64,000 nucleotides of DNA, from contig NW_022651108.1 of NCBI RefSeq assembly GCF_004027225.2, positions 124,001 through 188,000 on the forward strand, given 5' to 3'. Source of the DNA: Strigops habroptila. Taxonomy: Eukaryota; Chordata; Aves; Psittaciformes; Psittacidae. The notes beneath the pieces were generated by a model. It was not told the DNA's origin, searched no databases, and worked only from the letters and a program-made list of their open reading frames with translations. Numbering within the stretch: the first letter of the stretch is position 1; each line of letters begins with the position of its first letter. The position numbers and the translations under genes were made by a program. This document shows positions 39,401 through 50,800 of the stretch, piece by piece.

Positions 39401-44288
<4,888 letters not shown>

Positions 44289-44855
44289 GCTGGCAGCGGG
44301 GCCTCGCTGGGGCCAGGCCGGGCCCTTCCGGTGGCGGCGACGGGGGGGGGAAGGACCGGACGGTCCCGGCCCGAGGCCACGCCCCCCCCCCCCCCGAGGC
44401 CCCGCCCCACCGGCGCCCGGTGGCTGGTGTCGGTTCCCGGTACCCGGTGCCCGGTGCCGGTTCCCGGTGTCGGTTCCTTGTTCCCGGTGCCGGTGCCCGA
44501 ATCCCGGTGCTGGTTCCCTGTTCCCGGTGTCGGTGCCCGGATCACGGTTCCCTGTTCTCGGATCCCGGTGCCGGTGCCCGGTTCCCGGTGCTGGTTCCCG
44601 GTTCCCTGTTCCCGGTGTCGGTTCCCGGTGTCGGTGCCCGGATCCCGGTGCCCGGTGCCCGGTTCCCGGTTCCCGGCTCCCCTCGGTCCCGCCCCGGGCC
44701 CCGCCCGCCGCCGCCCCGCCCCCGCCGCCGCCGCCGCCCTTTGTCCGCCGCCGTTGCCGCGGGCCCCGCCATGGCGGAACGGTGATGGGCGGCGGGGCCG
44801 GCCCGAGGATAACGGGGCCGAGGGGAACCGGGAGCCTCATGCCGGGGCCGCCGCC
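44289..44855. promoter_or_regulatory. Bidirectional VASP/RTN2 promoter
   Basis: 570 bp of CpG-rich sequence separate the divergent VASP and RTN2 start codons. The centre (44400-44690) is an array of GGTTCCCGGTGTCGG units. No TATA was seen. The head-to-head arrangement fits a shared CpG-island promoter. Confidence 0.6.
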
Positions 44856-47800
44856 ATGGGGCAGGTCCTGGGCTTCGCCCACTGCAGTATGAACCGGGAA
44901 CCGGGAACCGGGGCCAGGGAGGGGCGGCGGCACCGGGAGCGGCTGCGGATGGAGGGGACCGGGATGGGGACCCGCGAATGGGGGGATAGGGATGGAGAAC
45001 CGGGGGGGACTGGGGATGGGGAACCGGGAACCGGGAGGTGCCGGGGATGGGGGCACCGGGAATGGGGGAGTAGGGATGGAGAACCGGGAGGGACTGGGGA
45101 TGGGAGTACCGGGAATGGGGAACCAGGGACACAGGGATGGGGAACCGGGATGTTAACCGCGATGGGGGGACCGGGAGTGGCCAGGAATGGGGGTACCGTG
45201 GATGGGGAACCGGGAACGGGGAGGGACCGGAATGGGGGGGGGAACCGGGGGACTGGTGGTTCGGGAACGGGGGGACGGGGTGGGTCCGAGGTCAGGGATA
45301 ACCGGGGCGGCGGCACCGGGAGTGGCCGGGGATGGGGGTATCGGGATGGATCTGCCGGGAATGCGGGTACCGGGATGGGGGGATCGGGGATAGAGGGACC
45401 GGAATGGGAGGGACCGGGGATGCAGGGACCGGGATTGATGGACCGGGAATGGGGGTACCGGGGATGGGGAGTCCGAGGGGAGCACCGGGAGTAGCTGCGG
45501 GGGCAGGGACAAGGGGTGGGGGGAGTGCTGGAGTCGGTTTGGGGGTACCGGGACACTGGGGGGGGTCCCCACGGCCCCCCCACCGCCCCTTTGCGTGTCC
45601 CCCCGCAGAAGAGGCTCCATCCACGGCCTCCACCACACCGGACTCCACGGAGGGTGAGCGGGGCCGAACCCCCCTTTGGGGGTGCAGATTTGGGGAGGGG
45701 GGAACCCCAAAACCCCCCCCTTGACCCCCCAAAACCCCCCTCAAAGGTGGCCCCGAGGAGCCCGAGTTCCCCCCCGAGCTGCCGGCGGCCCCGGTGCCCC
45801 CCGAGGAGGAAGAAGAGGATGAAGATGGGGGGACCCCCCCTCGGACTCCCCCTCGCGAACTCACCTTCTCCTACATCACCTTTGGGGGAGGGGGCAGCGC
45901 CCCCCAAACCGAGCCGGGCCCCCGCTGCCGCCGGGACCCCCGCCGAGGGCGCCCCCCCCGCCTGGGCTCAGGGCCCCCCCCCCCGGGGGCTGGACCCCCA
46001 TTTAGGGGTCAGAGCCCCCCCAAAGCGGCAAGGGGAGCCCCCGGCTCCCTCCGAGGGGCGGCTGGAGCTGGGGGGGGCCCTTCTGGGGGGGGGAAGGCCC
46101 GAGATGGAAGAGCCCCCGATGAGGCCGGGTATGGGGGGGAGGCTTGGGGGGGTCATGGGGGGGTCCTGAGGGTCCCCAAGGGGGGGTGGGGGCAATGGGG
46201 GCTCATGGGAAGGGCTTGGGGGGAGTAGTGGGGGTGTCTAAGGGGGCTGCGGGTCATTGAGGGTAACGGGGGGAGGTCCCCAAGGGGGGGTGGGGGGCTT
46301 GGGGAGTCCTCAAGGGGGGTTGGGGGCAATGGGGGGGTCATGGGGGGGGGTCTCAAGGGGAGCTGGGGGCAACGGGGGGGGTTAAAGGGGGGAATGGGGG
46401 CCTTGGAGGGGTCATGGGAGGTCCCTAAGGGGGGGGCTGGAGGCAATGGGGGGGTCCCCAATATGGACTCGGTGTCATGGGGGGGCCCCGGGAGGGTCTC
46501 GGGTCCATGGGGGGGTCCCTATAACCCTCTGACCCCCTCATTCCCTCAGCAGCCCCTCCCCAGCCCGCAGGGGGAGCCCCGCGGCCGGCCCCCCCCGCGC
46601 CCCCCCCGGACCCCCCCTCGACCCCGGACCCTCCCCCGGCGCCCCCCGACCAATCAGCGAGCCCGGCGGGCGCTGATGTACTGGGTGAGCGGCCAATCAG
46701 CGCCCCCGGGCACGGCGCGGGGGGGAGCTCACTGCGCGGGGGGGGCCCCGGGGTCCGGTTGCGGGGAGGACCCGGGCGGCGGCGCGGGATTGGCCGCTAA
46801 AAATAGGGGTGACCCCCCCCCCCAGGGCCCCCCCCCGGCAGCGACCGAGGGAGCCATGGAGAGACAGGGTGGGGGGGGCACCGGGGGGGCACTGGGGGTA
46901 CTGGGGGTACTGGGGGGCACTGGGAGCACTGGGGGGCACTGGGGGGGCACTGGGGGTACTGGGGGGTACTGGGAGCACTGGGGAGCACTGGGGGGGGCAC
47001 TGGAGGGGATACTGGGTAGCACTGGGGGGGTAATGGGGGTACCGGGAAGTGCTTAAGGGGATACTGGGAATCACTGGAGGCACTGAAGGGGATACTGGGG
47101 GGCACTGGGGCATCTCTGGAGGCACTGGGAACACTGGGGGGGGGGGCACCGGTGCTGCCGTGAGTGCAGTGTGGGAGCTGCTGTACTGGGATGCACTGGG
47201 AGGACTGGGATGCACTGGGGAGCACTGGGGAGCACTGGGGTGCACTGGGATGCACTGGGGGCAGTGGGGGGGCTCTGGGGGTCACTGCGCTGCCGTGCCC
47301 GCAGTGTGGGAGCTGCTGTACTGGGATGCACTGGGATGCACTGGGGTGCACTGGGATGCACTGGGGTGCACTGGGGCCAGTGGGGGGGCTCTGGGGGTCA
47401 CTGCGCTGCCGTGCCCGCAGTGTGGGAGCTGCTGTACTGGGATGCACTGGGAGGACTGGGATGCACTGGGGAGCACTGGGGAGCACTGGGGTGCACTGGG
47501 ATGCACTGGGGGCAGTGGGGGGGCTCTGGGGGTCACTGCGCTGCCGTGCCCGCAGTGTGGGAGCTGCTGTACTGGGATGCACTGGGATGCACTGGGGTGC
47601 ACTGGGATGCACTGGGGTGCACTGGGGCCAGTGGGGGGGCTCTGGGGGTCACTGCGCTGCCGTGCCCGCAGTGTGGGAGCTGCTGTACTGGGATGCACTG
47701 GGATGCACTGGGGTGCACTGGGATGCACTGGGGTGCACTGGGGCCAGTGGGGGGGCTCTGGGGGTCACTTCGCTGCCGTGCCCGCAGTGTGGGAGCTGCT

Positions 47801-50800
47801 GTACTGGGATGCACTGGGATGCACTGGGGGGCACTGGGGTGCACTGGGGGGGCACTGGGGGTCACGGTGCTGCCGTGCCCGCAGTGTGGGAGCTGCTGTA
47901 CTGGGATGCACTGGGGTGCACTGGGGTGCACTGGGGTGTGATGGGTGGCACTGGGGTGCACTGGGGATCACTGGGGGGGCACCGGGGGTGACGGCGCTGC
48001 CGTGCCCGCAGTGTGGGAGCTGCTGTACTGGCGGGACCCCGCGCGCTCGGCGCTGGTGCTGGTGTCGCTCCTGGCCGCGCTGGGCTGCCTCGCGCGCTTC
48101 AGCGCCGTCAGCGTGGGCGCCTACGGGGCGCTGGCCGTGCTGGGGGTCACCCTGCCCCGGCGCCTGCACCGCGCAGCACTGCGGGCCCTGCGGCCCCCCC
48201 CGCACCCCAGCCGGTGAGTGACCCCCAACGGCGCCCCCAGGGGCACCCCCGGGACCCCCAGAGACACCCCCATTGACATCCCCATTGACCCCCCCATCGA
48301 CATCCCCATTGACATCCCCATTGACCCCCCCATTGACATCCCCATTGACATCCCCATTGACCCCCCCATTGACATCCCCATTGACCCCCCCATTGACATC
48401 CCCATTGACATCCCCACTGACACCCCATTGACATCCCCATTGACATCCCCAGTGACACCCCCAGTGACACCCCCAGAGACCCCCCAATGACACCCCCAGT
48501 GACTCTCCCATCGACACCCCAGTGACATCCCCATTGACCCCCCCATTGACATCCCCAGAGACACCCCCATTGACATCCCCATTGACCCCCCCATTGACAT
48601 CCCCAGTGACATCCCCATTGACATCCCCATTGACACCCCCAGTGACACCCCCAGTGACTCTCCCATCGACACCCCATTGACATCCCCATTGACCCCCCCA
48701 TTGACATCCCCATTGACACCCCCAGAGACACCCCCAGTGACATCCCCATTGACATCCCCATTGACACCCCCAGTGACACCCCCAGAGACTCTCCCATCGA
48801 CACCCCATTGACATCCCCATTAACACCCCAGTGACACCCCTGGGACTCCCGGAGACCCCCTTGACACCCCCCATTGATACCCCCAGAGACACCCCCAGTG
48901 ACACCCCCGGGACCCCCAGACACCCCCCAGTGACACCCCCAGTGACATCCCCGGGACCCGCCTTGATGCCCCTATTGAAACCCCAGTGACACCCCCAGTG
49001 ACACCCCCGGGACCCCCAGACACCCCCCAGACGCCCCCAGTGACACCCCCGGGACCCCCAGACACCCCCCAGTGACACCCCCAGTGACACCCCCGGGACC
49101 CCCCTTGACGCCCCTATTGACACCCCAGTGACACCCCCAGTGACACCCCCGGGACCCCCAGACACCCCCCAGACACCCCCAGTGATACCCCTGGGACCCC
49201 CAGACACCCTCCAATGACACCCCAGTGACACCTCTATTGACACCCCATTGACACCCCACTGACACCCCCATTGACACCCCCACTGACATCCCCATTGACA
49301 CCACCAGTGACACCCCAGGACCCTCGGAACCCCCCCGGGGACCCCTCCACGTCCCCCCAGACACCCTCCAGGGACACCCCAACTACCGCCCCAGGGACCC
49401 CCCCAGGGATCCCCCAATGACACCCCAGGGACCCCCAGAGACACCCCAGAGACCCCTCTGGGACACCCAGTGACGCCCTTGGGACACCCTGGTCTGGCCC
49501 AATGTCCCCATGGGAGGTCCCAATGTCCCAATCCCCATGGTATGGATGGCCTTGATGTTCCCATGGGGCGGTCCTGGGGTCCCCATGACCCATAGCATGG
49601 GGCGGCCCTGGGGTCCCCATGACCCATAGCATGGGATGGTCCTGGGGCCCCCATGACCCATAGCATGGGATGGTCCTGGGGTCCCCATGACCCATAGCAT
49701 GGGGTGGTCCTGGGGTCCCCATGACCCATAGCATGGGGTGGTCCTGGGCTCCCTGTCCCATGCGGTCCCCCGATGTCTCCATCCTCATGGGTGGTGCTGA
49801 TGTCCCCATGTCCTCATGCCATGGGGTGTCCCCATCCCTGTCCCTGCCCCATAGGGCGCCGCCGGAGGCTGCAGTGGGGCTGAGCCCCGAGGAGCAGCGG
49901 CGCTGGGCCCGGCGCCTGGCCCGGCACGTCACCGCGGCCACCCGCACCCTGGCCCGGCTCTTCCTCGTGCACAGCGTCCCCGAGTCCCTCAAGGTGGGGA
50001 GGTGTAGGGAGACATGGGGCATGGGGGGACATGGGGGATATGGGGGGATATGGGGACATGGGGAGATATGGGGAGATATGGGGACATTGGGATATGGGGA
50101 CATGGGGGGGACATGGGGAGATATGGGGACATGGGGGGATATGGGGACATGGGGAGATATGGGGACATTGGGATATGGGGACATGGACATGGGGATATGG
50201 ACATGGGGGATACAGGACACAAGGTGATATGTGGTGACATGGGGGGACACGGGGGGACACAGGGGGACATGGGGGACATGGGGACATGGTGACATGGACA
50301 TGGGGATATGTGGACATTGGGATATGGGGACATGGACATGGGGACATGGGACATGGGGTTATGGGGACATGGACATGGGGACATGGGACATGGGGATATG
50401 GGACATGGGGATATGGGAACATGGGGATATGGGACGTGGGGGATAAGGGACACAAGGTGATATGTGGTGACATGGGGGACACGAGGGGACACGGGGGGCA
50501 GTGGGGCGCTGGGGGGTGTGGGATGCGGGTGGTGACGATGGTGCTGGTGACAACGTCGATGCCGACGGTGGCTCCGGGCACAGTTCGCCTTCTTGTTCTA
50601 CCTGCTGACCTACGTGGGGGCCGTCTGCAACGGGCTGACGCTGCTGGGAGCCGGTACGGGACGGGAATGGGAATGGGACGGGAATGGGAATGGGATGGGG
50701 ACAGGATGGACATGGGATGGGGATGGGATGGAGTGGAGATGGGGTGGGAATAGGGATGTGATGGGGACAACAAGGGATGGAGATGGGATGGGGATGGGAT

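Follow-up and report, generated by a model that had tools for sequence, protein, structure and literature searches.

This locus raises the question of what becomes of an exon whose 3' splice site has been copied repeatedly within the intron that precedes it: does the array offer usable exons, a regulatory device, or splicing noise? A sequence-only reading of the window, by which we mean the whole stretch of 64,000 nucleotides analysed here, had proposed that a minisatellite multiplied this splice site, and this is right, as seven upstream copies of the exon edge are present. We conclude that the locus very probably represents exon stuttering in what is probably a bird RTN2 gene, derived from a single founding junction, with decoys that would act mostly as splicing noise.

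The gene looks like RTN2, the bird reticulon-2. The source exon of the copied edge, a reticulon exon (PF02453), is open and unaltered; alone, it matches the Pfam family PF02453 (Reticulon) with E 1.2e-07 (32.2 bits, where the family requires 31.8), and the reticulon exon translations, joined manually, reach E 1.6e-31 over profile positions 1-155 of 157. Protein queries run with tblastn gave reticulon, FOSB, VASP and AKT matches in the window, and an OPA3-like exon was recognised by eye. Three things point to RTN2 in particular, namely the short match EEAPSTASTTPDSTEG at the N-terminus (E 0.011), an MGQVL start noticed by eye and neighbours like those of the human gene; the AKT gene, named from sequence features, is presumably AKT2. 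The upstream exon, whose donor at 46869 scores 2.25 bits (approximate matrix), joins in phase 1 as G/TG TGG GAG (a slash marks a boundary here and below) to give MERQVWELLYW, a junction that resembles the human MGSK/VADLLYW border.

The exon edge TGTGGGAGCTGCTGTACTGG is present in eight identical copies, all in direct orientation, at 47170, 47305, 47421, 47556, 47672, 47788, 47885 and 48012, with spacings of 135, 116, 135, 116, 116, 97 and 127, and no exact match was found on the opposite strand; the coordinates and spacings first given for these copies were exact throughout. The 13-nt acceptor GCCGTGCCCGCAG stands unchanged before seven of the eight edges, namely the true site and six of the seven upstream copies. 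The statement that every upstream unit carries an acceptor together with 20 nt of exon consequently holds for six units, the acceptor of the leftmost copy being degraded to GCCGTGAGTGCAG, with three changes in 13 nt and an extra AG at -7, and with no TNAY or branch-like motif in the preceding 50 nt. The proposed row of up to eight near-identical acceptors is thus reduced to seven, six decoys and the true site, plus this degraded eighth. With up to two mismatches, GCCGTGCCCGCAG has 13 matches in the window, of which seven are exact and all seven lie in the RTN2 intron array, and none of 100 shuffles reached 13 (mean 3.03, largest 8). The 36-mer GCTGCCGTGCCCGCAG+TGTGGGAGCTGCTGTACTGG has seven exact matches and one with three mismatches, and nothing else with up to eight mismatches on either strand of the 64-kb window. 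The degraded first acceptor (47157-47169) also holds GTGAGT, the top-scoring donor-like site in the intron, although its exon side, GCC, is poor (0.92 bits, approximate matrix).

Table 1. Features of the RTN2 intron array and its flanking exons; a slash marks an exon boundary.
Feature	Position	Strand	Remarks
3' end of upstream coding exon, ...ATGGAGAGACAGG (MERQ + 1 nt)	46843..46868	+	donor CAGG/GTGGGG at 46869; left edge 46843 is a guess
Intron, 1143 nt	46869..48011	+	tandem repeat from 46873 on; 48% G on coding strand
Pre-array, first 288 nt of intron	46869..47156	+	mostly ~10-nt words of types GGNNCACTGG and GGGTACTGG, without exon copies
Leftmost copy: degraded acceptor GCCGTGAGTGCAG + exon's first 20 nt	47157..47189	+	sequence
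Units U1 (135 nt) + U2 (116 nt)	47170..47420	+	U1 = U3 135/135; U2 = U4 116/116
Exact decoy acceptor GCCGTGCCCGCAG	47292..47304	+	five more begin at 47408, 47543, 47659, 47775, 47872
Units U3 + U4, identical to U1 + U2	47421..47671	+	lag 251; exact run 287 nt
Units U5 (116), U6 (97), U7 (127)	47672..48011	+	end of U7 is the true acceptor
True acceptor GCCGTGCCCGCAG	47999..48011	+	
First reticulon-homology exon, 202 nt, intact	48012..48213	+	donor CCG/GTGAGT at 48214; first 20 nt are the copied edge

The minisatellite had been placed from 47155 onwards; there is repeat at this position, but the whole intron is a tandem repeat, in which masking by Tandem Repeats Finder (TRF) begins just after 46872 on the left and amounts to a coverage of 1.00 after rounding. 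The intron contains 91 runs of at least three G and nine non-overlapping G4-type motifs, the latter covering 751 nt. Steps of about 19 bp between units, which had been suggested, apply to the units of 135, 116 and 97 nt, 19 nt being two words of ~10 nt, but not to the last unit of 127 nt, which is 11 nt off 116. U5 and U2 differ by one base, and U1 and U6 are 38 gap positions apart in a pairwise count; the elements most diverged by substitutions are the leftmost acceptor and U7, and by gaps U6. Because the identity at a lag of 251 is exact over a run of 287 nt, we propose that, in the most recent expansion still visible, two units were copied together in a block of 251 bp. An exact duplication of this kind, or even the set of all copies, could have been made by the assembler, and one assembly only was available; such an artefact is nevertheless very unlikely, given that the unit types differ by indels and substitutions and that raw nanopore reads served to check the published class in the case of PHF8 (Hron et al, 2026; PMC12954441).

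With regard to the origin of the array, the exon sequence breaks off at one and the same base in each of the seven copies, ...CTGTACTGG/GATGCACTGGG (...TACTGG/GATGCACTGGG), at which the true exon goes on CGGGACC, and a single founding junction is therefore probably the simplest explanation. The breakpoint sits at GTACTGG (exon position 20), which belongs to the 5 of 196 exon 7-mers present in the pre-array (46869-47141); seven TACTGG words are found in the pre-array, four of them with the 7-nt match. As five exon 7-mers occur there, microhomology at the breakpoint is suggestive, not strong. It can be hypothesised that the intron was already a G-rich minisatellite of ~10-nt words when the first 20 nt of the exon, with the acceptor, became fused to an array word, perhaps through the GTACTGG that both contain. 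The fused unit may then have been amplified by unequal exchange or templated re-copying, most recently as the two-unit block, and selection for the last copy would have preserved the coding exon.

The class to which this phenomenon belongs is already in print, as exon stuttering on avian dot chromosomes, in which intronic arrays copy an exon edge together with the splice site; 190 of the 236 introns reported lie on avian dot chromosomes, 183 of 192 exon-stuttering introns differ in length among chickens, and in the example of figure 2 of that article the repeats lie within 20% edit distance of their consensus (Hron et al, 2026; PMC12954441). The likeness is close: RTN2 has seven direct tandem copies of exon positions 1-20 and of the acceptor (degraded in the leftmost copy) in an adjoining intron heavily covered by simple repeats (TRF 1.00), the exon is intact, the repeated blocks of 97-135 fall within the published range of tens to hundreds of bases, and AKT2, one of the genes analysed in detail in that article, lies, by our naming, in the same window. 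What sets RTN2 apart is the exon part of exactly 20 nt, which is within the criterion of at least 20 bp but at the bottom of the published range (20-187, median 36). Because the exon part is so short, each of the seven copies scores 40.1 bits with blastn-short, compared with at most 32.2 bits among 200 mononucleotide-shuffled introns, and falls under the bit score of at least 42.1 used by Hron et al, which is a cut-off of their blastn-short screen and not of the phenomenon. RTN2 is a clear case that this cut-off would drop, if the exon is annotated there as here, and such a seven-copy case suggests that the published screen undercounts. The main text of that article contains no occurrence of RTN2; as to mechanism, its authors write that they can do no more than speculate, and they point to a comparable pattern in genes of gerbils. 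Our literature search found no report of multiplied acceptors in RTN2, and in the portion of PMC13192246 considered here there is no occurrence of AKT2, FOSB, VASP, OPA3 or reticulon. Tandem duplication also multiplies splice signals in intron gain in Drosophila (PMC2891723), but no new intron arises at RTN2, where only acceptors are copied inside an existing one. What is new here is the founding junction, which we infer to be single, the recent 251-bp two-unit duplication and the predicted consequence for splicing. The window as a whole, with a GC content of 0.64, 57% of positions 1-64000 masked by Tandem Repeats Finder, and AKT2 and FOSB identified by tblastn, is compatible with an avian dot chromosome, on which it may lie.

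Judged by its core signals, the true site is no stronger than the decoys. Pyrimidines occupy 11 of the 20 positions from -22 to -3 at the true site, 12-14 of 20 at the six good decoys and 10 of 20 in the leftmost copy, and a TNAY motif is found at -21 in the true site and the six good decoys, the true site having a second at -42. The spliceosome would meet six near-perfect decoy acceptors ahead of the true one, and exon definition would be expected to give the advantage to the last site, the only one at a distance of 202 nt from the GTGAGT donor. Where the introns on either side are large, splice sites nearest to each other across an exon were found to be preferred (Carranza et al, 2022; PMC9225289); the introns flanking the reticulon exon, of 1143 nt and ~1.6 kb, may count as large in this sense. 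The choice of the last site is not assured, however, because the same authors describe an overall upstream preference of 3' sites, albeit one that is significantly reduced under exon definition. The two situations are alike in that one donor is contested by acceptors of comparable strength that are separated by more than 20 nt, and differ in that alternative pairs are concerned there, whereas RTN2 has seven near-identical sites and a degraded one, made by a repeat array.

When joined, the decoy frames open with VWELLYW and continue into repeat-encoded residues, as had been read from the sequence. In the scan, which ran to 48213 and which requires only the exon phase set by the reticulon frame, none of the seven decoys gives an in-frame, stop-free exon extension: for four (47421, 47556, 47672 and 47885) the extension contains a stop, and the other three (47170, 47305 and 47788) run into the reticulon exon in the wrong frame, the extended exons measuring 329-1044 nt compared with 202 nt for the true exon. 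Useful exon extensions are ruled out by frame, and the decoys are therefore expected to lose to the true site or to yield waste transcripts. We expect the true site to win in most cases and the decoys to leak, in which case their splicing, as seen from the extended exon, would produce out-of-frame or stop-containing RNA and would amount to noise that scales with copy number.

The array could also be imagined to encode extra exons. Three 75-nt cassettes (47305-47379, 47556-47630 and 47672-47746), inserting VWELLYWDALGCTGVHWDALGCTGA, are in frame and free of stops, and a 51-nt cassette at 47885-47935 is likewise open and in frame, with a donor GGG/GTGTGA of 0.7 bits (approximate matrix). The donor of the 75-nt cassettes, CCA/GTGGGG, has A and not G at -1, however, and scores -0.81 bits against 2.25 for the intron donor and 6.3 for the next donor (approximate matrix); as this donor is poor, these cassettes are only a weak rival, and extra exons are highly improbable. 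Recursive splicing is the least probable of the alternatives: after joining to a decoy, the junction CAG/GTGTGG would be a better donor (4.48 bits against 2.25 for the original, approximate matrix) and could be re-spliced to a later site, but the upstream exon would thereby lose its final G and, as derived by hand, the frame would shift, so that this route cannot make reticulon protein; it was rejected as a route to this protein on account of the dropped base.

The absence of any decoy that keeps the frame without a stop (0 of 7) means that any use of decoys would lower output, and it is conceivable, although unlikely, that they form a working device in which their number sets the output of productive RTN2 mRNA via unproductive splicing and decay. 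A 41-nt core, comprising the last 16 nt of the acceptor region and the first 25 nt of the unit, has no variable column compared with 18 of 62 other columns (hypergeometric P 3e-5, with five sequences standing for seven units and the 62 columns free of gap-only differences). The outer region, however, consists of slippage-prone 10-nt words of uncertain alignment, the units are not independent, the leftmost acceptor with its three changes in 13 nt was left out of the core alignment, and recency and conversion explain the core identity equally well. Selection on the core is not claimed here, since slippage and non-independent units undercut the test. That the number of decoy acceptors, likely to vary from one individual to another in line with the published class, sets the productively spliced share of RTN2 pre-mRNA is a proposition to which we would give a slender chance. 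Were it true, a neutral repeat process would have become a heritable dial on an ER-shaping gene. We prefer to read the decoys mostly as noise. The RTN2 array is a natural setting in which to study the choice of the spliceosome between successive, near-identical 3' splice sites, and each wrong choice of acceptor is detectable in RNA by its junction.

Elsewhere in the window, 33 approximate exon segments (AKT2 13, OPA3 1, VASP 5, RTN2 10, FOSB 4) were compared with their flanking introns (2 kb at gene ends), and only the RTN2 exon at 48012-48213 has a match of at least 40 bits; the exon limits are approximate, short edge copies may escape, and the screen left out the rest of the window, such as 13-38 kb and the gene at 1-7 kb. 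In a set of 28 approximate introns, repeats make up 65% or more of 13 of the 17 that exceed 500 nt, and 10 of the 11 shorter ones are without any. VASP (- strand) and RTN2 (+ strand) lie head to head (43575-44815), with their first recognised coding sequences ~1.2 kb apart. CTAAAAATAG at 46797-46806, 50 nt upstream of the ATG at 46856, is a perfect MEF2-type box and could be a putative muscle promoter for a short RTN2 isoform beginning MERQVWELLYW. Chicken RTN2 is among the genes described as up-regulated in early wooden breast muscle (PMC6826700). The next RTN2 intron (48254-49489) is largely a C-rich array of ~12-nt words (CCCCATTGACAT), whose style complements that of the G-rich array preceding the exon; of the 216 inverted pairs found, the 25 longest link the two introns, with arms of 35-47 nt and 71-80% complementarity.
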